A DNA stretch of 64,000 nucleotides from Acidobacteriota bacterium (lineage in GTDB: Bacteria; Acidobacteriota; Thermoanaerobaculia; UBA5066): contig JAKOVQ010000047.1 in NCBI GenBank assembly GCA_029781975.1, positions 62,001 through 126,000 on the forward strand, given 5' to 3'. Shown here in pieces: positions 3,170 through 41,370 of the stretch; within the stretch, counting starts at the first letter, position 1; each line of letters opens with the position of its first letter. The notes beneath the pieces are model-generated. The model had not been told where the DNA came from and made no database searches. It saw nothing but the letters and a program-made list of their open reading frames with translations. The position numbers and the translations under genes are program-made.

Positions 3170-4594
3170 ATGACGAACCCGCCCGTCTTCGGGACAGACG
3201 GCTGGCGCGGCCGGATCGCCCGCGACCTCACCTTCGACAGCGTCGCCCGCGTCGTCGACGCCATGGCGGCCTGGACGGTCGACCCGGAGAACCGGGACCC
3301 GGGCGACCCGTGGACCCTCGCCCTCGTCCACGACACCCGGTTCCTGTCGCCGGAGCTGGCGGCCGAGAGCGCCTCGCGCCTCTCGTCCCGCGGGTTCCGC
3401 GTCCTCCTCACCGACCGCCCCGTGCCGACTCCCTGCGCGTCGTGGCACGTCGCGAGCCGCTCTCTCCGCGGCGGGATCGCGATCACCGCGTCGCACAACC
3501 CGGCCGAGTGGAACGGCGTGAAGTACAAGGCGTACTTCGGGGGGAGCGCGCCCCCCGCGACCTACGCCGCCATCGCCGGCCGGGTCGACCGGCTCCTCCC
3601 CGAGCGCCCCGGCGGCTCGGTCGAGCGCCTCGACCTGGCGGCGGACTACCGCGCGGCGATCGCGGCCCGGGTCGACCTCGACGCGATCCGGCGGGCGGGG
3701 CTGACCGTCCTCTTCGACGCGATGCACGGCGCCTCCGGCCGGCTCCTCGCCGAGATCGTCGGCGAGGGGCACCCGACCCGCGTCACGACGATCCGGGCCG
3801 ACCGCGACCCGACCTTCGGCGGGGTCCATCCGGAGCCGATCCCGGAGCACCTCGGCGCGTCGCGCGAGCGGCTGTCGGCCGAGCGGTTCGACGTCGCGCT
3901 CGCGAGCGACGGCGACGGGGACCGCCTGGGGGTCCTCGCGCCGGACGGGACGTTCGTCACCCCCCACCGGATCCTCGCGCTCCTCGCGGAGAGCCTCACC
4001 CTGCGCGGGCGGGTGGCCCCCGGGATCGTGAAGACGTTCTCGACCTCCCTCCTCGTCGACCGCGTCGCGGCCCGGCTCGGCGTGCCGCTCCACCTGACGC
4101 CGATCGGGTTCAAGTACGTCGCCGAGAAGATGCTCGCGGGAGAGGCCGGGATCGGGGGCGAGGAGTCGGGCGGGCTCGGCGTCTCGTTCTACCTCCCGGA
4201 GCGGGACGGGGTCCTCTCCGCGCTGTTGGTCCTGGAGGCGGTCGCGCACTCCGGGGGGAGCTTCGAGGACCTCCTCGCCGACCAGGCGCGGCGCTTCGGC
4301 GCCTTCGCGTACGGGCGGCGGGACGTCCGGCTTCCGCTTCCGCTCCTCAGGCGCTTCGTGGCGGAGCTCGACGCCTCCCCCCCGGACCGCCGCGCGGGCG
4401 AGGCGGTCACCGGCGTCTCGCGGCTCGACGGGCTCAAGCTGGAGCTGGGCGAGAGGGGCTGGCTCCTCTACCGCCTCTCGGGGACCGAGCCGATCCTCCG
4501 CGTCTACGCGGAGCACGAGGATCCCGCGGTCGTCGCCCGGCTCCTCGACCAGACGGAGGCGGCCCTCGCCGCTCAGGCGTCGATCAGCAGGTAG
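3170..4594 (+). CDS. Phosphoglucomutase/phosphomannomutase family protein
   Basis: A 474-residue alpha-D-phosphohexomutase. All four hallmark sites are visible: catalytic phosphoserine S108 in TASHNP, the Mg2+-binding DGDGD (D247, D249, D251), the sugar loop GGEESGG (E331-E332-S333) and the phosphate loop RLSGTEPILR near the C terminus. It interconverts hexose 1- and 6-phosphates; whether the substrate is glucose, mannose or glucosamine phosphate cannot be settled from motifs. ATG 3170 is chosen because FGTDGWRG follows at once. Longer in-frame starts run back into the divergent pgsA. A weak TTGCGC-N16-GAGAAT promoter ends 10 nt before the ATG. The 3' end overlaps the convergent TPR-AIM24 gene by 22 nt. 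Confidence 0.92.
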   Translation: MTNPPVFGTDGWRGRIARDLTFDSVARVVDAMAAWTVDPENRDPGDPWTLALVHDTRFLSPELAAESASRLSSRGFRVLLTDRPVPTPCASWHVASRSLRGGIAITASHNPAEWNGVKYKAYFGGSAPPATYAAIAGRVDRLLPERPGGSVERLDLAADYRAAIAARVDLDAIRRAGLTVLFDAMHGASGRLLAEIVGEGHPTRVTTIRADRDPTFGGVHPEPIPEHLGASRERLSAERFDVALASDGDGDRLGVLAPDGTFVTPHRILALLAESLTLRGRVAPGIVKTFSTSLLVDRVAARLGVPLHLTPIGFKYVAEKMLAGEAGIGGEESGGLGVSFYLPERDGVLSALLVLEAVAHSGGSFEDLLADQARRFGAFAYGRRDVRLPLPLLRRFVAELDASPPDRRAGEAVTGVSRLDGLKLELGERGWLLYRLSGTEPILRVYAEHEDPAVVARLLDQTEAALAAQASISR

Positions 4595-6060
4595 CCGTTC
4601 CCGGCGAAGGAGATCGCCGGGCCCGCGCCCAGCTCGGCGAGCGGGTCCTCCTCCTCCACGAGGTCGACGTCGAGGTCACCGCCCCAGGCGAGGAGCGACC
4701 GGACCGCCACGGTCACGGGCATCTGAACCGTCACCTCGAGCCGCGCGGGAGTCCCGCTCGACGCGAGGGCGACGACGCCGGTCCCGAGGAGCTTGAGGAA
4801 CGGCAGCTCGATCTGCCGCCGGAACTCGAAGGCGGGGTCCTCGCGGTAGCCGAGCGACGCCTCGAACCCGAGGAGCCGGCCCGGGTCCGCCGACAGGAAG
4901 TCGTCCCTCAGATGGACGAGGTGGAGCTGCCGCCGGACGTCGAGGAGCAGGACCGAGCCCTCTCCGGTGGCGCGAGCCAGGGAGCCCGCCAGCGGGCCCC
5001 CGAGGAGGGTGTCCGCCTCGAGGATCGAGCCGCCGGTCCTCCCTGCCAGGACGGTGCGCCTCACGAGGACGCCACCCCGGCAGTCGACCACGACCATGCC
5101 CGCCCCGCGAGAGGCGAAGGGGACCGGGTGACCGAGCACCGGCCTGGGGAGCTCGCCGCTCCGGGGGGCGGTCGAGCGGAGGGCGGAGGGACCGCTCCCG
5201 GTCGGCGCCGGCACCGGCATCGCGAGCGCGTCCTCCGAGGGAGGGGGGACCCGCGGGGCGGTGGCCGCCTTCGCATGGCCCGCCGCCGGTGCGACGGCCC
5301 CGCCCGAAGGCTCCTCGGCGGCCTGGGCCCCGCCCTCGGCCGCGGCAGGCGCGACCGGCAGGATCGGCGCGGTCGGCTCACCCGAGCCGGACGGCTCGGC
5401 CGCGGGAGGCTCCGTTTCGGCCGGCCGTGGCTTGATCACGAGGATCGGCTCCGTCTTGGGCCCCTTCTGCTTCTGCGGCCCCCCCTCCTCGCCGCTCTCG
5501 AACAGCTCGGGCTTCACGGCGGCGGGGGGAGCGGGCCCGGGACGGGCCGCGACGGCGGCCCGCGCGGTGCGCGAGATCGTGTCGTCCCCGTCGATCCCGG
5601 CCTTCCGCTCGGCGCCGGCGATCCGGAGGTGCCGCGCCGCCCTCTCGGTCTGACCGTCCCGCTGGAGGACGAGGCCCAGCGTGAGGTGGGCCTTCCGGTG
5701 GTTCGGCGCGAGGGCGAGGACCCGCTCGAGGGGCTCGCGGGCCTCCGGCCGCCCCGCCTTGTAGAGGATCAGCCCGAGGTTGAAGAGGAGCGGGACCGAC
5801 TCCGCGTGCGAGGAGAGGAGGGAGCGCGTGATCCGCTCGGCGTCGTCGAGGTGCCCGAGGTGGAAGAGCGAGAGCGCCAGGTTCGAGAGGACCTCCGGGT
5901 CCTGCCCACGGAAGCGGCGCGCCTCCTCGAACTCGAGGCGGGCGTCGTCGAACTGCCCCTTCCGGAGGTTCTCCTTGCCGCGGTTCAGGTGCAGCAGGAA
6001 GAGTCCGTGGTCGAAGAACGGTGCCGGCCGCGTCCCGGGGTCGCCCAGGCGGCCGCTCAT
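4573..6060 (-). CDS. TPR protein with C-terminal AIM24-like domain
   Basis: A 495-residue protein in three parts. Residues about 20-160 form TPR repeats (ARLEFEEARRF, LSNLALSLFHLGHLDDAE, LLFNLGLILYKAG, AHLTLGLVLQRDG). Residues about 165-305 form a Pro/Ala-rich low-complexity linker. The C-terminal ~190 residues look like an AIM24-type beta domain (LHLVHLRDDFLSADPGRLLGF, then a GTG-VALASSG segment). AIM24 proteins are broadly conserved but poorly understood, so no reaction is claimed. There is no signal peptide, which suggests a cytoplasmic scaffold. Its ATG overlaps the stop of the upstream lytic transglycosylase as ATGA. The AIM24 call is from pattern only. Confidence 0.65.
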   Translation of the reverse strand: MSGRLGDPGTRPAPFFDHGLFLLHLNRGKENLRKGQFDDARLEFEEARRFRGQDPEVLSNLALSLFHLGHLDDAERITRSLLSSHAESVPLLFNLGLILYKAGRPEAREPLERVLALAPNHRKAHLTLGLVLQRDGQTERAARHLRIAGAERKAGIDGDDTISRTARAAVAARPGPAPPAAVKPELFESGEEGGPQKQKGPKTEPILVIKPRPAETEPPAAEPSGSGEPTAPILPVAPAAAEGGAQAAEEPSGGAVAPAAGHAKAATAPRVPPPSEDALAMPVPAPTGSGPSALRSTAPRSGELPRPVLGHPVPFASRGAGMVVVDCRGGVLVRRTVLAGRTGGSILEADTLLGGPLAGSLARATGEGSVLLLDVRRQLHLVHLRDDFLSADPGRLLGFEASLGYREDPAFEFRRQIELPFLKLLGTGVVALASSGTPARLEVTVQMPVTVAVRSLLAWGGDLDVDLVEEEDPLAELGAGPAISFAGNGYLLIDA

Positions 6061-6821
6061 CGGGACGGCGCGACCCTTCCCAGGAGCGGGGCGCCCCGGG
6101 ACGACGACGCCGCCGCCGGGAGGTTCGAGAGGACGAGCGTGCCGTCGTCCACCCGGAGCTTCACCGGAGCCGCGGGAGGAGACGGGGGGCGCCGGGGCGC
6201 CGGCGCCGGCGCCGGGGTCATCCCCTTGAAGCCTCCGGAGAGGACCGGGACGGCCGCGGAGCCGCGGTAGACGAGCATCGCCCGCCGGACGTACTCCTGC
6301 GTCTCGGGGTAGGGGGGGACTCCGGCGTAGCGGTCGACGGCCCCCGCGCCCGCGTTGTACGCCGCCAGGGCCCGCACCACGTCGCCGCGATAGAGCGTGA
6401 GGAGGTCGGCCAGGTGGCGGACCCCGCCGCGGATGTTCTGCAGCGGGTCGAACGAGTCCCGCACGCCGTAGCGCGCCGCCGTCGCAGGCATCAGCTGCAT
6501 GAGGCCGCGCGCCCCCTTGCGGGAGACGGCGCGCGGGTTGAAGTTGGACTCGACGAGGACGACGCTCCGGACGAGCCCGGGGTCGACCCCTTCCTGGCCC
6601 GCGTGCCGGACGATGGCGTCGTCGTACGGGGTCCGGTCGTTGCGCCGAGCGAGGAGGTAGGCGTCGGACGGCGCCCGCCCGTTCACGTTCCAGCCGCTCC
6701 CGACGTCGTTGAACAGGAGGACCGAGCCGTCGGCCCGGCGCAGGAGATGCACCTTCGCCGCCGCCGGCGGAGCGAGGAGGAGGGCGGCAGCTACCGCTGC
6801 CCGAACGCCTCGGGTCGACAC
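6057..6821 (-). CDS. Lytic transglycosylase (SLT domain)
   Basis: A 254-residue exported murein lytic transglycosylase. An N-terminal signal peptide (hydrophobic run to about residue 22, AAA cleavage region) precedes a short segment and then the SLT fold. The catalytic Glu is in VESNFNP (about residue 92), followed by GLMQLMPATAARYGV and AAYNAGAGAV. It cleaves the MurNAc-GlcNAc bond in the periplasm. The C-terminal ~65 residues are Pro/Ala-rich with no recognised domain. GTG 6821 follows a TATACT -10 by 8 nt, so the mRNA may be leaderless. It is coupled to the downstream TPR-AIM24 gene. Confidence 0.9.
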   Translation of the reverse strand: MSTRGVRAAVAAALLLAPPAAAKVHLLRRADGSVLLFNDVGSGWNVNGRAPSDAYLLARRNDRTPYDDAIVRHAGQEGVDPGLVRSVVLVESNFNPRAVSRKGARGLMQLMPATAARYGVRDSFDPLQNIRGGVRHLADLLTLYRGDVVRALAAYNAGAGAVDRYAGVPPYPETQEYVRRAMLVYRGSAAVPVLSGGFKGMTPAPAPAPRRPPSPPAAPVKLRVDDGTLVLSNLPAAASSSRGAPLLGRVAPSR

Positions 6822-36188: not shown

Positions 36189-36707
36189 TCAGCGGGCCCG
36201 GGGCGTCGACCGCTTCCGCGCGACGGACCGGTCGAGGGCCCGCTCCACCTCGGTCTCGACCTCGCGCTCGTCGAGGCCGTTGACGAGGGCGATCTCCGAG
36301 ACGACCAGGTAGCGGGCGCGCTCGTACATCTTCTTCTCGCGGAAGGAGAGCGCCTTGTGCTTCTGGACCCAGTTGAGGTTCTTGAGGACGTCGGCCACGT
36401 CGGGGAGGCGGCCCGTCCTCATCTTGTCGAGGTTCTGCTTGAAGCGGCCCTTCCAGTCGCTGGTCGGGTCGAACCCCCCGTCCTCCAGGAGGCGGAAGAT
36501 CGTCCCGACGTCCTGCCGGCGCACCAGCGGGCGAAGGCCGACCCGGTCCGAGTTGGAGACGGGGATCGTGACGCGGGAGTTCGTCCCCAGGAGCCGGACC
36601 TGGTAGCAGGGATGCGCCGAGCCCTCGACGAGGGATTCGTGGATCGTCTCCACCACGCCGACGCCGTGGTTCGGATAGACGAGCTTTTCACCGATCTTGA
36701 AGCTCAA
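36189..36707 (-). CDS. carD: CarD-family transcriptional regulator
   Basis: A 172-residue protein with an N-terminal RNA-polymerase-interacting Tudor-like domain (FKIGEKLVYPNHGVGVVETI, YQVRLLGTNSRVTIPVSN) and an all-helical C-terminal DNA-binding domain (WVQKHKALSFREKKMYERARYLV, in part). CarD/CdnL proteins stabilise open promoter complexes, notably at rRNA promoters. The start is a TTG at 36707 preceded by GGGAGG. A near-consensus promoter lies 30 nt upstream. The C-terminal tail is basic. Confidence 0.93.
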   Translation of the reverse strand: MSFKIGEKLVYPNHGVGVVETIHESLVEGSAHPCYQVRLLGTNSRVTIPVSNSDRVGLRPLVRRQDVGTIFRLLEDGGFDPTSDWKGRFKQNLDKMRTGRLPDVADVLKNLNWVQKHKALSFREKKMYERARYLVVSEIALVNGLDEREVETEVERALDRSVARKRSTPRAR

Positions 36708-36736
36708 GCCGTCGCCTCCCTGAAGAGCGGACGCTC

Positions 36737-36765
36737 AGTCTAAGCGCTCGCGCGGGCCGGGTCAA
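36737..36765 (-). promoter_or_regulatory. carD promoter
   Basis: TTGACC (36765-36760), a 17-nt spacer and TAGACT (36742-36737) on the minus strand. It lies between the tRNA-Leu 3' end and carD. Confidence 0.75.
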
Positions 36766-36822
36766 CGCGCCTCCGGACGGCGATGCGGGGCCGCTCGGGG
36801 GCCCGACCGTGGCCGGCTCGGC

Positions 36823-36909
36823 TGGTGCCGGAGGCGGGACTCGAACCCGCATGTCCGCGAGGGACGGGGGATTTTGAGTCCCCTGCGTCTGCCATTCCGC
36901 CACTCCGGC
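36823..36909 (-). tRNA. tRNA-Leu (anticodon CAA)
   Basis: An 87-nt class II tRNA on the minus strand with encoded CCA (36825-36823). The acceptor arms GCCGGAG / CTCCGGC pair fully. The anticodon stem GGGGA / TCCCC closes the loop CTCAAAA, giving CAA (36876-36874). A long variable arm and the T-arm GGTTCGAGTCC are present. It reads UUG codons. Confidence 0.96.
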
Positions 36910-36924
36910 CCCGGCGGGCGGGCC

Positions 36925-36930
36925 AGTCTA
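36925..36930 (-). promoter_or_regulatory. -10 element of tRNA-Leu
   Basis: TAGACT on the minus strand, 15 nt before the mature 5' end and identical to the carD -10. No clear -35. Confidence 0.45.
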
Positions 36931-36957
36931 GCAGGGCGCCCGGGGCGCCCGGGACGG

Positions 36958-37422
36958 TCAGGCCCAGTCGAGCTCGATCGAGGCGTGGAGGTGGGCCGCG
37001 ACCGCCCCGACGATCGCGCCGACCGTGTTCCAGAAGACGTCGTTCACGTCGGCGGCCCTGGTCGGGAGGAAGAACTGGACGGTCTCGATGCCGACCGAGA
37101 GGACGAGCCCGAGGAACGCGACCTCGAGGTGGGTCCTCAGGCGCGGCCTGTCTCGCCCGTCGACGAGCTTCCAGGCGAGGAAGCCCCACGCCGCGAAGAG
37201 CGCCAGGTTCCCGAGGAGGCCCGCCACCGCCAGGAGGGCCCGGGCGTTCAGGAACCCGGACCGGCCGGCCTGCTGGGCGATCCGGGCCACGTCGTCGAAC
37301 GGGACGAGGTTCGTCCGGACGCCGGGACGGCCCTCCACGACGAGCGTCGCCCCGAGGAGGAGCGCCGTGTAGGCGGCGAGGAGGGCCCCCTGGAGCCCCT
37401 TGCTGACGACGACCTTCCTCAC
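36958..37422 (-). CDS. VanZ-like membrane protein
   Basis: A 154-residue protein with four predicted membrane helices and the VanZ-family pattern (NLVPFDD near residue 38; FLGLVLSVGIETVQFFLPTRAADVNDVFWNTVGAIVGA, conserved ETxQ and D-x-D-N segments, shown in part). VanZ of enterococci gives low teicoplanin resistance, but the role of most homologues is unknown. GTG 37422 follows GGGAGG. It diverges from the MgtE-N/CBS gene. Confidence 0.82.
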   Translation of the reverse strand: MRKVVVSKGLQGALLAAYTALLLGATLVVEGRPGVRTNLVPFDDVARIAQQAGRSGFLNARALLAVAGLLGNLALFAAWGFLAWKLVDGRDRPRLRTHLEVAFLGLVLSVGIETVQFFLPTRAADVNDVFWNTVGAIVGAVAAHLHASIELDWA

Positions 37423-37521
37423 GAGGCCTCCCCCGCCGCCCGGGCCCCGGACCGGACGGGCGCGGCGGCGGGCGACGCGGAACGGATTCGGGCCATCGGG
37501 CGGAGCTTAGCGGAACCGGCG

Positions 37522-37550
37522 TTGACGCCTCCGGCCCCGCCTCCCAGAAT
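37522..37550 (+). promoter_or_regulatory. Promoter of the MgtE-N/CBS-NRAMP operon
   Basis: TTGACG (37522-37527), a 17-nt spacer and CAGAAT (37545-37550). The -10 is only 6 nt before ATG 37557, so there is no room for a leader or riboswitch. Confidence 0.65.
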
Positions 37551-37556
37551 CGGCCA

Positions 37557-38855
37557 ATGAGCCGCGCGAAGCCCGCGGAAGCCCTCCCGCCGACCCGCGA
37601 GAGCTTCTTCGTCTCCGAGTTCCTCGGCTCGGTCGTCCTCGACGTCGCCCGCAAGCCGGTCGGGAGGATCCGCGACTTCGTCGTCGGCACGAGCCAGAAG
37701 GGCCCGTTCCCGCGCGTGACGGGGCTGCTGCTGCGCGAGGGCTTCGAGGTCTTCGTCCTCCCCTGGGAGGACGTGGCGATCTTCGTCCACGGGAGCGTGA
37801 GGACGCGGCTCCAGCGCGAGGACCTCATCCACCGGGCCCCGGAGGACGACGAGATCTTCCTGGCCCGGCACCTCCTCGACAAGCAGATCGTCGACATCAA
37901 CGGCGCCAAGGTCGTCCGCGTCAACGACCTCAAGCTCGACTTCGTCGAGGGGGACCTCGTCCTCACCGCCGCGGACGTCGGCGTCCGCGGCATCCTGCGG
38001 CGCGTCTTCGGGCCCGGCCTGACGCCGACGGGCGGACGGTTCTCCGACGCCTCCGTCCCGCCGCGCCTCATCGCCTGGGACTCGATGCAGCCGCTCCACC
38101 CCAGGCTCGAGCGCCTCGAGACGACGCTGCCCCAGGAGAAGCTCCGGAGGCTCCACCCGGCCGACATCGCCGACCTGATGAGCCAGATCTCCACCAAGGA
38201 GAGGGCCGCCGTCTTCGACAAGCTCGACCTCGAGACCGCCGCCGAGACGCTCCACGAGCTGGAGCCCGAGCTCCAGGTCGAGCTCCTCGAGGACATGCCC
38301 GAGGAGCGGGCGTCGGACATCCTCGAGCAGATGCCGGCCGACGAGGCCGCCGACATCCTCGGCGACCTCGAGGGCGACAGGGCCCAGGACCTGGTGAAGC
38401 GGATGGACAAGGAGGCGGCCGAGGAGGTGACGGAGCTCCTCGTCCACGACGAGGACTCGGCCGGCGGCCTCATGGGGACCGACTACGTCTCCCTGCCCGC
38501 GGGCCTGACGGTGGGCGAGGCCCTCCGCAGGGTCCGGGAGGCGGCCCGCGAGGCGGAGGTCCTCCTGGACGTCTACGTCGTGGGCGAGCGGGACATCCTC
38601 GCCGGCTCGCTCTCGCTCCGCGAGCTCCTCGCGGCCGACGACGAAACGCCCCTCGAGAAGGTGATGCGAGCCCCGGCCCGGAGCGTCCCGTCCTACGCGC
38701 CGGTCTCCGAGGTGATCGACACGGTCGCCCGGTACGACCTCCTGTCGCTCCCGGTCACCGACCCCGAGGGGGTCCTCATCGGGAGCGTGTCGATCGACGA
38801 CGTCGTGGCCCGGCTCTACCCGCAGGAGCGCGCGCACCGGAGGCGCCTCAGGTGA
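37557..38855 (+). CDS. Soluble PRC-barrel / MgtE-N / CBS protein
   Basis: A 432-residue cytoplasmic protein. Residues about 18-165 hold two PRC-barrel-like beta segments (FLGSVVLDVARKPVGRIRDFV; LLDKQIVDINGAKVVRVNDLKL). Residues about 195-305 match the helical N domain of MgtE Mg2+ channels (LHPADIADLM, ERAAVFDKLD, MPEERASDILEQMPADEAADIL). A CBS pair (about 305-425) follows. The MgtE transmembrane pore is absent. In MgtE, the N-CBS module senses Mg2+ and gates the pore. Here it probably senses a cation for the NRAMP protein encoded next; their stop and start overlap as GTGA. Confidence 0.88.
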   Translation: MSRAKPAEALPPTRESFFVSEFLGSVVLDVARKPVGRIRDFVVGTSQKGPFPRVTGLLLREGFEVFVLPWEDVAIFVHGSVRTRLQREDLIHRAPEDDEIFLARHLLDKQIVDINGAKVVRVNDLKLDFVEGDLVLTAADVGVRGILRRVFGPGLTPTGGRFSDASVPPRLIAWDSMQPLHPRLERLETTLPQEKLRRLHPADIADLMSQISTKERAAVFDKLDLETAAETLHELEPELQVELLEDMPEERASDILEQMPADEAADILGDLEGDRAQDLVKRMDKEAAEEVTELLVHDEDSAGGLMGTDYVSLPAGLTVGEALRRVREAAREAEVLLDVYVVGERDILAGSLSLRELLAADDETPLEKVMRAPARSVPSYAPVSEVIDTVARYDLLSLPVTDPEGVLIGSVSIDDVVARLYPQERAHRRRLR

Positions 38856-40141
38856 CCTCGCGTCCCGTGGCGTCCGACGGCGCCCCCCGCCCCACGGGCT
38901 CGCCGCTCGTCAGGCGGCTGGGGCTCTTCCTCGCCGTCATCGGCCCCGGGATCATCACCGCGAACGTCGACAACGACGCCGGCGGGATCGCCACCTACTC
39001 GATCGCCGGCGCGCACTTCGGCTACTCGCTCCTCTGGGTCCTCCTCCCGGTCACCGTGGCCCTCGTCGTCGTCCAGGAGATGTCGTCGAGGCTCGGCGCG
39101 ATCACGGGCAAGGGGCTGGCCGACCTGATCCGCGAGAACTTCGGTCTGAGGATCACCTTCTACCTCCTCCTCGCCCTCCTCGTCACGGACATCGGCAACA
39201 CCGTCGCCGAGTTCGCGGGATGGGCGGCAGCCCTCGAGATCTTCGGCATCCCGCGCTGGATCTCGGTCCCGATCGGCGCCTTCGTCGTCTGGTGGATGGT
39301 CGTCAAGGGGACCTACCGGACGGTCGAGAAGATCTTCCTCATCGCCTGCACGATCTACGTCACGTACATCATCAGCGCCCTCGTCGCCCGGCCGGTCTGG
39401 AGCGACGTCATCCGCCAGACGTTCGCGCCGAACATCGAGTCGAGCGCCGCGTGGCTCCTGATGATCATCGGCATCGTCGGGACGACGATCGCCCCCTGGA
39501 TGCAGTTCTACCTCCAGTCGTCGATCGTCGAGAAGCGGATCGGCCCGGCCGAGTACCGCATCGCCCGGTGGGACGTCATCGTCGGCTGCCTCATCACGGA
39601 CATCGTGGCCTTCTTCATCATCGTCGCCTGCGGCGCCACCCTCTATCCCAAGGGGATCCGGATCCAGGGGGCCGAGGAAGCGGCGCTCGCCCTCGAGCCG
39701 CTGGCCGGGGCGTTCGCCAAGGACCTCTTCGCCCTCGGCCTGGCCAACGCCTCGCTCTTCGCCGCCTCCATCCTCCCCCTGGCGACGGCCTACTCCATCT
39801 GCGAGGGGCTCGGGTTCGAGGCGGGAGTGAACAAGACCTGGGCGGAGGCGCCGCAGTTCCTCGGCCTCTACACCCTCATGATCGCCGTGGGGGCCGGGGT
39901 CATCCTGATCCCGGGAGTCCCCCTCTTCCCCGTCCTGTTCCTTTCCCAGGTCGTGAACGGGCTCCTCCTCCCCTTCGTCCTCGTCTTCATGTGCATCCTG
40001 ATCAACCGGCACGACCTGATGGGCGAGCACGTCAACGGCCGGTTCTGGAACTTCGTCTCCTGGGGGACGAGCGCGGTGATGATCCTCCTCACGCTCCTGC
40101 TCGTCATCGCGTCCTTCTTCCCGGGAAGCGTCCCCGGCTGA
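38852..40141 (+). CDS. Divergent NRAMP-family cation transporter
   Basis: A 429-residue, ~11-helix SLC11/NRAMP-fold transporter. The helix-1 motif, DPGN in classic members, reads DAGG (D42-A43-G44-G45), keeping Asp but losing Asn. The helix-6 motif, normally MPHN, reads APWM (A214-P215-W216-M217), so the metal-binding Met is gone. In classic NRAMPs that Met favours Mn2+ and Fe2+ over Mg2+ and Ca2+. The substitutions resemble NRAMP-related Mg2+ transporters. With the coupled MgtE-N/CBS partner, a hard divalent cation such as Mg2+ is inferred. GTG 38852 overlaps the upstream stop. Confidence 0.9.
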   Translation: MTSRPVASDGAPRPTGSPLVRRLGLFLAVIGPGIITANVDNDAGGIATYSIAGAHFGYSLLWVLLPVTVALVVVQEMSSRLGAITGKGLADLIRENFGLRITFYLLLALLVTDIGNTVAEFAGWAAALEIFGIPRWISVPIGAFVVWWMVVKGTYRTVEKIFLIACTIYVTYIISALVARPVWSDVIRQTFAPNIESSAAWLLMIIGIVGTTIAPWMQFYLQSSIVEKRIGPAEYRIARWDVIVGCLITDIVAFFIIVACGATLYPKGIRIQGAEEAALALEPLAGAFAKDLFALGLANASLFAASILPLATAYSICEGLGFEAGVNKTWAEAPQFLGLYTLMIAVGAGVILIPGVPLFPVLFLSQVVNGLLLPFVLVFMCILINRHDLMGEHVNGRFWNFVSWGTSAVMILLTLLLVIASFFPGSVPG

Positions 40142-40212
40142 CTCCCCGGGAACGAAGGTTGCAGGCAACTCCCCGGACGCCGGGCCGGACCCGGTTCCCG
40201 ACCACGATTGAG

Positions 40213-40228
40213 GACGGCGTGCGCCGTC
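40213..40228 (+). promoter_or_regulatory. Hairpin abutting the ribosome-binding site of the barrel gene
   Basis: GACGGC (40213-40218) and GCCGTC (40223-40228) form a perfect 6-bp stem with a 4-nt loop. It ends directly before the GGAGG site (40229-40233). It could modulate ribosome access or protect the mRNA 5' end. Confidence 0.35.
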
Positions 40229-40238
40229 GGAGGTGAAG

Positions 40239-40925
40239 ATGAAGACGCTCCCGAGCATCCGGTGGGCCGCGGCGGTGCCGCTGGCCCTCGCTTTCGCTCT
40301 CCTCGCCGGGCCCGCCCGGGCCCAGGACCGCCGGGGAACGGTCGAGATCTCCCCGTTCATCGGCGGGTACTTCGGCGGCACCTTCGACTCGGGGACCCTC
40401 GCCTTCTACGAGGGGGACGCCGAGCTGCAGGCCGAGGTCGCCTACGGGGGCCGCCTCGGGTTCAACCTGTCCCGCAACTTCGGCCTCGAGTTCAGCTACC
40501 TCCAGAGCGACCCGAAGCTGAGGGCGAAGGGGTCCGGGGCCATCGGAAGCGTGTCCCGGGACCTGGGCAAGATGAAGATCCGCCTCTACGAGCTGAACAT
40601 GCTCGTCCCGTTCGGCCCCTACGCGGGCGGCCGGGTCCAGCCCTACTTCGTCATGGGGGGAGGCGTGAACACCTTCCAGCCCGACGTCGGCGTGGGGTAC
40701 ACGTCCACCGACTCCCGTTTCACCGCGAACATGGGCCTCGGGCTGAAGGTCTGGGTCGACCCCCACTTCGGGTTCCGGTTCGAGGGAAAGGGGCGGACGA
40801 CGTACCTCAACAGCGACGGCAACTACGACTACTGCAGCCACCACGACAACTACTACTCCAGCTGCAACGATTCCCAGTGGATCTGGGCCGGCGAGGCGAC
40901 CGGCGGGATCGTCATCGCCTTCTGA
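40239..40925 (+). CDS. Outer-membrane beta-barrel protein
   Basis: A 228-residue protein with a signal peptide (ALLAGPARAQD, cleavage near residue 26) and alternating amphipathic strands ending in Phe (GGIVIAF), typical of 8-strand OmpA/OmpX-like barrels (SRNFGLEFSYLQ, VQPYFVMGGGVNTF, HFGFRFEGKGRTTYL). A Cys pair occurs in an Asp/Tyr/His-rich surface loop (YDYCSHHDNYYSSCND). ATG 40239 is chosen because GGAGG is 5 nt upstream; GTG 40233 is an alternative. The 3' end overlaps the convergent tsaE by 14 nt. No specific function is claimed. Confidence 0.85.
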   Translation: MKTLPSIRWAAAVPLALAFALLAGPARAQDRRGTVEISPFIGGYFGGTFDSGTLAFYEGDAELQAEVAYGGRLGFNLSRNFGLEFSYLQSDPKLRAKGSGAIGSVSRDLGKMKIRLYELNMLVPFGPYAGGRVQPYFVMGGGVNTFQPDVGVGYTSTDSRFTANMGLGLKVWVDPHFGFRFEGKGRTTYLNSDGNYDYCSHHDNYYSSCNDSQWIWAGEATGGIVIAF

Positions 40926-41370
40926 CGGACGGCACGGGGCCGGAGAGGGAGACCCTCCGGCCCCCTCCCTCCGCCACGCGGAGGGAGACCCGGTAGGCCG
41001 CCTCGGAGTCCCAGACGCCGCCGGGCCACTCCACCGCCAGCACAGCCCCGCTCTCCCGGGCGTCCGACAGGCCGAGATCCGCGACCTGACGGGGCTCGTC
41101 CGGCGCCCCGAGGAGCCGGTAGAGGTCGACGTGGACGAGGACGGGAGGCCGCCCGGGCGGACCGTACTCGTGAACGATCGCGAACGTCGGGGAGGCCACC
41201 TCGTCCGGGTCGATCCCGAGCCCCTCGGCCAGGCCCCTGACGAAGACCGTCTTCCCCGTCCCGAGCTCGCCGTCGACGAGGACGAGGTCCCCGGGGGAGA
41301 GCCGCCTACCGAGCTCGCGGCCCAGGGCCCGGGTCGCCGGCTCGTCCGGGCAGAGGACCTCCTCCGTCAC
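40912..41370 (-). CDS. tsaE: tRNA threonylcarbamoyladenosine biosynthesis ATPase TsaE
   Basis: A 152-residue P-loop protein of the TsaBDE complex that makes t6A37 in ANN-decoding tRNAs. Walker A is DGELGTGKTVFVRG, followed by SPTFAIVHEY and VDLYRL (family hallmarks), and the late VLAVEWPGG motif. GTG 41370 overlaps the nnrDE stop. It is the last gene of a four-gene coupled operon. Confidence 0.93.
   Translation of the reverse strand: MTEEVLCPDEPATRALGRELGRRLSPGDLVLVDGELGTGKTVFVRGLAEGLGIDPDEVASPTFAIVHEYGPPGRPPVLVHVDLYRLLGAPDEPRQVADLGLSDARESGAVLAVEWPGGVWDSEAAYRVSLRVAEGGGRRVSLSGPVPSVRRR

Follow-up and report, generated by a model that had tools for sequence, protein, structure and literature searches.

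Two overlapping plus-strand genes in the window (the whole 64,000-nucleotide stretch of Acidobacteriota DNA analysed here) are a well-preserved example of a gene pair already in the literature, in which an NRAMP-related metal transporter adjoins a homologue of the MgtE cytosolic domain. ORF1 (37557–38855, + strand, intact, ATG start) encodes an MgtE-like soluble protein of 432 residues, and ORF2 (38852–40141, + strand, intact, GTG start) encodes an NRMT-type transporter of the NRAMP fold with 429 residues. The stop of ORF1 and the start of ORF2 share the four nucleotides GTGA (38852–38855, + strand), with the GTG start codon of ORF2 lying inside the overlap, as an earlier note on this DNA had described. 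The reading favoured here, with a probability of roughly 0.55, is that ORF2 is an H+-uncoupled importer of Mg2+ (and Mn2+) throttled by ORF1, a detached MgtE sensor. The new elements are a survey of the sensor's metal sites and the suggestion that the two proteins switched metal jointly.

ORF2 matches the Nramp family over residues 46–396 (Pfam PF01566, E 9.9e-100) and exceeds the cut-off of the Nramp-family model NF037982 (90.7 vs 50), scoring below those of the MntH models NF001923 (161.9 vs 430) and TIGR01197 (90.1 vs 272.5). The helix-1 break reads DAGG (residues 42–45, D42 to G45; 38975–38986, + strand), and the helix-6 break reads TTIAPWM (residues 211–217, including T211, A214 and M217; 39482–39502, + strand). 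These motifs depart from the classical NRAMP/MntH site, DxxN with A/CxxM, and agree with the DxxG-TxxA/T signature that defines NRMTs in the accessible part of Ramanadane et al. (2022, PMC8806188). The best PDB sequence match is EleNRMT (E 2.6e-110, 372.7 bits), followed by D. radiodurans MntH (E 1.8e-32, 116.2 bits). An ungapped alignment of ORF2 residues 21–420 on EleNRMT 34–433 superimposes D42 on D55, E120 on E133, T211 on T224, and A214 on A227. A214 occupies the canonical Met-ligand position, and M217, three residues further on, is therefore not that ligand; that both the Asn and the Met ligand are gone, as the earlier note had read from DAGG and APWM, is thus borne out by both sequence and alignment. 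The H+-pathway histidines of helix 6b are also missing, with W216 and either L221 or Q222 at these positions (Q222 in the HMMER alignment of MntH, which differs by one), and helix-6b histidines are likewise replaced in the published NRMTs (PMC8806188). The predicted ORF2 model (pLDDT 91.6, pTM 0.89, from 24 sequences) has EleNRMT (7qia) as its best PDB fold (E 1.2e-25). ORF2 thus shares with EleNRMT the four site residues, the fold and the missing histidines, but only 46% identity. EleNRMT carries Mg2+ and Mn2+, not Ca2+, and shows no H+ coupling (PMC8806188). EcoDMT given the NRMT site residues still does not transport Mg2+ (PMC8806188), and the motif is therefore a family mark and no proof of cargo.

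ORF1 combines a weak PRC-barrel match (residues 99–138, whole-protein E 1.9e-5), an MgtE_N domain (residues 199–300, E 1.2e-25) with an overlapping FliG_M match, and CBS sequence (best stretch 367–419, E 1.2e-11), and Pfam finds no MgtE pore domain (PF01769) in it, which confirms the pore-less domain composition proposed earlier. Its score against the MgtE model TIGR00400 is 157 bits, below the cut-off of 232.75. Residues 182–420 align to T. thermophilus MgtE over its cytosolic domain (E 1.2e-34), and the chain ends at residue 432, only 12 residues past the aligned stretch, where MgtE continues into its plug helix and pore. In the predicted model (pLDDT 88.4, pTM 0.67, from 79 sequences), the N-terminal 180 residues are rich in strands and a helical domain precedes the CBS pair; the best PDB fold is the MgtE cytosolic domain 2yvy (Foldseek E 2e-22, TM 0.87 by target length). 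Residues 1–180 (37557–38100) are modelled as approximately two small barrels, of which the Pfam PRC match covers 99–138 only.

In MgtE, site Mg4 comprises D91/D247, Mg5 D226/D250, Mg6 D95 and Mg7 E59, with Mg2/Mg3 (E258/D259) in the plug region, and mutation of D91/D247 or D95 leaves a channel that no longer closes, according to the accessible part of PMC5882242. Alignment to T. thermophilus MgtE, with the numbering offset verified by all six residues, places E59, D91 and D95 on the N-domain codons E230, D262 and D266 (38243–38355, + strand), and D226, D247 and D250 on the second-CBS codons D394, D415 and A418 (38736–38810, + strand). ORF1 therefore resembles T. thermophilus MgtE (2yvy/2yvx) in its N domain, its CBS pair and its Mg4, Mg6 and Mg7 residues, but differs in lacking the pore and the plug helix with Mg2/Mg3, in having lost half of Mg5 (A418), and in carrying the extra N-terminal barrel region.

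In the proposed mechanism, the enlarged ORF2 site without a soft ligand would admit largely hydrated Mg2+ (and also Mn2+), and the transporter, uncoupled from H+, would let Mg2+ run inward along its gradient. ORF1 would represent the MgtE N/CBS sensor freed from the pore, joined to a PRC-type barrel and acting as a cytosolic partner of ORF2. When cellular Mg2+ is high, the ion would bind between the N and CBS domains and compact ORF1, and the compacted protein would inhibit ORF2, just as these domains shut the MgtE channel. Mg2+ is probably the main cargo of ORF2, and physical contact of ORF1 with ORF2, leading to inhibition, is about equally probable. The Mg2+ reading is favoured because EleNRMT is the closest match and has the same D/G/T/A site, because relatives linked to an M-box share the motif, and because the counterparts of MgtE E59, D91, D95 and D247 are kept. 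Weighing against it are the Mn2+ transport of EleNRMT, the loss of half of Mg5, the missing plug helix with Mg2/Mg3, and three points set out below, namely the A. capsulatum pair, the lack of an M-box at the window and the CorA genes of the source genome.

The pairing itself is largely in print. In the accessible part of Shin et al. (2014, PMC4072509), where NrmT is named, most nrmT genes adjoin one that codes for a homologue of the MgtE cytosolic domain, for which a role in cytoplasmic feedback or as a chaperone is proposed. ORF1 and ORF2 fit this description, an NRMT gene adjoining an MgtE-cytosolic-domain gene, so that the separate sensor protein suspected earlier is supported by the published family and its neighbouring gene (PMC4072509, PMC8806188), whereas the novelty that the earlier note implied for pairing and feedback falls away. 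The locus of C. acetobutylicum Ca_c0685 is alike in its DxxG-TxxA NRAMP-related transporter, its MgtE-cytosolic-domain neighbour and the proposed cytoplasmic feedback, but its sensor is split, whereas ORF1 is one gene, and, unlike that locus, the window has no M-box (PMC4072509). The PRC region and the survey of metal sites go beyond the accessible part of that paper. A literature search, with subscription journals mostly outside it, found no later NRMT paper on the MgtE-like protein and no publication combining 'MgtE' and 'PRC-barrel'.

The check on related genomes that the earlier note had proposed reveals a pairing that recurs in many phyla with varying gene order. Within the phylum, 171 of 297 genomes carry an ORF2 match at E up to 1e-3, and the loci sampled comprise the best 30 matches plus 60 hand-picked regions, mainly one per genome, from a longer match list. 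Among the 60 of these loci with at least 44% identity (window included), the sensor gene lies on the same strand within 300 bp in 29, farther away in 12, and is absent from the stretch taken in 19. It is present, always downstream, in all nine loci at 35–39% identity, in none of the nine at 31–34% identity with DPSG/TTIS, and in neither of the two with DAGA. A wider survey of named genome contigs, limited to the best 80 of a larger number of relatives, finds the sensor on the same strand within 300 bp in 55, farther away in 4, on the opposite strand in 2 and absent in 19, nine of the latter having less than 1300 bp on one side; the record titles include Nitrospirae, Deltaproteobacteria, Omnitrophota, Acidobacteria, Firmicutes, Spirochaetes, Chloroflexi and others. 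In the 109 pairs left after removal of one canonical NRAMP row, the sensor gene precedes the transporter gene in 96, follows it in 12 and lies on the opposite strand in one; 20 of the 109 overlap, with starts chosen by a simple rule. In a 60-genome sample of the class, 11 genomes have near-full-length ORF1 matches; ten adjoin an NRMT gene (the window, L006–L009, L081, L185 and L187–L189), and the eleventh (L186) lies at a contig end. No fusion of sensor and transporter appears in the loci scanned, whose tables were checked by eye. Such recurrence across phyla, while the order of the two genes varies, goes beyond chance.

This distribution bears directly on the role of ORF1. A distinctly unlikely alternative holds that ORF1 is co-transcribed with ORF2 without gating it, serving as a metal buffer or chaperone, or as a regulator of another protein such as CorA. 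A chaperone is the alternative of Shin et al. themselves, and the C. acetobutylicum NrmT is functional without its MgtE-like gene (PMC4072509); the 19 phylum loci without a nearby sensor and the 12 with one more than 300 bp away point in the same direction. Gating of ORF2 by ORF1 is favoured over such a role by the persistence of the pairing while gene order changes, and by the adjacency to NRMT genes of ten of the 11 full-length class sensors.

Several loci deserve separate description. The nine phylum loci at 31–34% identity (L088–L096) encode NRAMP-outgroup proteins with DPSG in helix 1 and TTISPYL in helix 6, and have no MgtE-like gene near. Five phylum NRMTs (L070, L072, L073, L074 and L075) carry DASG (EASG in L074) with TTITPFM, and none of the five has a sensor gene near. 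L041 holds tandem NRMT paralogues on the minus strand (3473–4765 and 4870–6111; 54% and 56% identical to ORF2) with the differing motifs DPGG/TTIT and DAGG/ATIA, and likewise no sensor gene near. In L010, a canonical-looking NRAMP (DPGN/ATVM; 3–1352, − strand) lies directly downstream of an NRMT/sensor pair, possibly forming a cluster of Mn2+ and Mg2+ importers, and in L014 an NRAMP piece likewise lies downstream, cut by the locus end.

A challenge to Mg2+ as the main cargo comes from the same phylum. Acp2977 of A. capsulatum behaved mainly as a Mn2+ transporter: it fully rescues a Mn2+ transport defect, whereas Mg2+ transport deficiency is relieved only when Mg2+ is supplied at low millimolar levels, and co-expression of the MgtE-like gene Acp2976 does not improve the rescue (PMC4072509). 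Of the Mg2+-type hard-cation importer proposed in the earlier note, the fit to the NRMT family stands, with Mg2+ as its probable rather than certain main cargo. The genome taken to be that of A. capsulatum ATCC 51196 holds a single NRMT gene by a search at E up to 1e-100 (locus L177), and its pair resembles that of the window in phylum, in gene order (sensor upstream) and in having no M-box reported. It differs in a 104-nt gap between sensor and transporter, as against the 4-nt overlap, and in a transporter 53% identical to ORF2 with helix-1 DPNG in place of DAGG (helix 6 reads TTIA). At E59, D91, D95 and D247, its sensor reads E, S, D and H, compared with E, D, D and D in the window, so that Ser and His replace the Mg4 Asp pair intact in ORF1.

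A tree of 111 rows, with the motif columns removed, places A. capsulatum in a 15-row clade (SH-aLRT 100), all 15 rows lacking both the Asp pair and DAGG/TTIA. In this Acidobacteriaceae clade, the transporters carry DPNG, DSGG or TTIT/TTIS, and Ser, Gly or Ala with His, Gln or Glu form the Mg4 pair of the sensors. The window falls in a different, 16-row set (support 96) with Nitrospirota and delta-type rows, its nearest neighbours being its own family, and the Mn2+ result therefore need not apply to it. Among 108 relatives, DAGG/TTIA accompanies an intact D91/D247 pair in 53 of 62, compared with 25 of 46 with other motifs (Fisher p 0.0005, kinship ignored). The sensor trait changes only four times on the tree, and kinship-corrected independent pairs give no significance. 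Exceptions run in both directions: 25 rows join another transporter motif to an intact sensor, including a seven-row Thermodesulfovibrionia-type group in the window's own clade, and in nine DAGG/TTIA occurs with a sensor that is altered, of which five are Smithella-like or other delta-type rows. A law-like statistical coupling between motif and sensor site is accordingly rejected, and the association rests on one clade-level event. We tentatively suggest, as an idea more doubtful than probable, that the transporter and its detached sensor switch metal in step; pairs with DAGG/TTIA and intact D91/D247, including the window, would then form a Mg2+ import-feedback loop, the Acidobacteriaceae clade of A. 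capsulatum would have switched both halves to Mn2+, and the sensor would label the cargo.

Among 111 MgtE-like sequences, conservation of the metal-site residues is highest at D95 (106 sequences), followed by D247 (86), D91 (79), E59 (68, with Asp in 21 more), D250 (23) and D226 (14), and mean identity is 0.56 at these six positions, compared with 0.30 at the other 47 acidic positions. The counts leave out loci replaced by longer fetches, NRAMP matches spanning fewer than 330 residues of the query, sensors falling clearly short of full length, and the canonical NRAMP row L010. A basic tail at the MgtE plug start occurs in close relatives of the window, but was rejected as a general trait, since net charge is at least 3 in only 36 of 111.

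An Rfam scan at gathering thresholds of all 80 wide-survey loci (the best 80 of more) locates an M-box directly upstream on the same strand in 12 (L111, L112, L114, L116, L121, L122, L123, L125, L132, L157, L168 and L176), of which L125 and L157 are acidobacterial by record title; the Mn2+ riboswitch yybP-ykoY occurs in none of the 80. All 12 M-box-linked transporters carry DAGG/TTIA, as the window does, compared with 43 of the 68 others (Fisher p 0.014, uncorrected), and D91, D95 and D247 are all present in 11 of 11 sensors of M-box loci (Fisher p 0.032 for M-box against the sensor Asp pair, uncorrected for kinship). The M-box label needs six changes on the tree and was therefore gained or lost repeatedly, marking a subset of NRMTs without being a defining feature. 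No M-box appears in the 16 phylum loci scanned, in the window's own 16-row clade, or, together with any other metal riboswitch, in window positions 36700–41000 at E up to 5. The 134-bp gap between ORF1 and the upstream divergent gene (37423–37556) likewise holds no M-box; it contains a single sigma-70-like consensus match (37522–37550), which alone is no evidence of function.

The source genome (5.37 Mb, 96% complete) further constrains the function of the pair. ORF2 is the one NRAMP-family gene found and ORF1 the only MgtE_N gene; because this genome contains no MgtE pore domain, ORF1 cannot serve an MgtE channel here, or be its remnant regulator. There are two CorA genes, by which Mg2+ supply is possible, and two ZnuA-type binding proteins. 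In an alternative that we consider possible but rather unlikely, the pair mainly imports Mn2+, ORF1 senses Mn2+ or divalent ions in general, and Mg2+ enters via CorA. Such a role agrees with the full Mn2+ rescue by Acp2977 from the same phylum and the conclusion of Shin et al. (PMC4072509), with the Mn2+ transport of EleNRMT (PMC8806188), with the two CorA genes and the single NRAMP-family gene, and with the lack of an M-box at the window. Opposing it, A. capsulatum lies in a distant clade with DPNG and Ser/His, compared with DAGG and an intact Asp pair in the window, and one of the two ZnuA-type proteins could belong to a Mn2+ ABC importer. The export of Mg2+ by the pair, an option raised in the earlier note, is highly improbable: no supporting point was found, and an uncoupled carrier cannot export against the inside-negative potential. 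The characterised NRMTs are described as uptake systems in the accessible parts of both papers (PMC8806188, PMC4072509).

Since 2014, the question has been posed explicitly what the MgtE-like neighbour of nrmT does (PMC4072509). If ORF1 gates ORF2, one metal-sensing module would have passed between an ion channel and a carrier of the alternating-access type that is unrelated to it, working on the latter as a separate subunit. The sensor-site survey leads to a sequence-based prediction that separates Mg2+ pairs of the window type from possible Mn2+ pairs of the A. capsulatum type.
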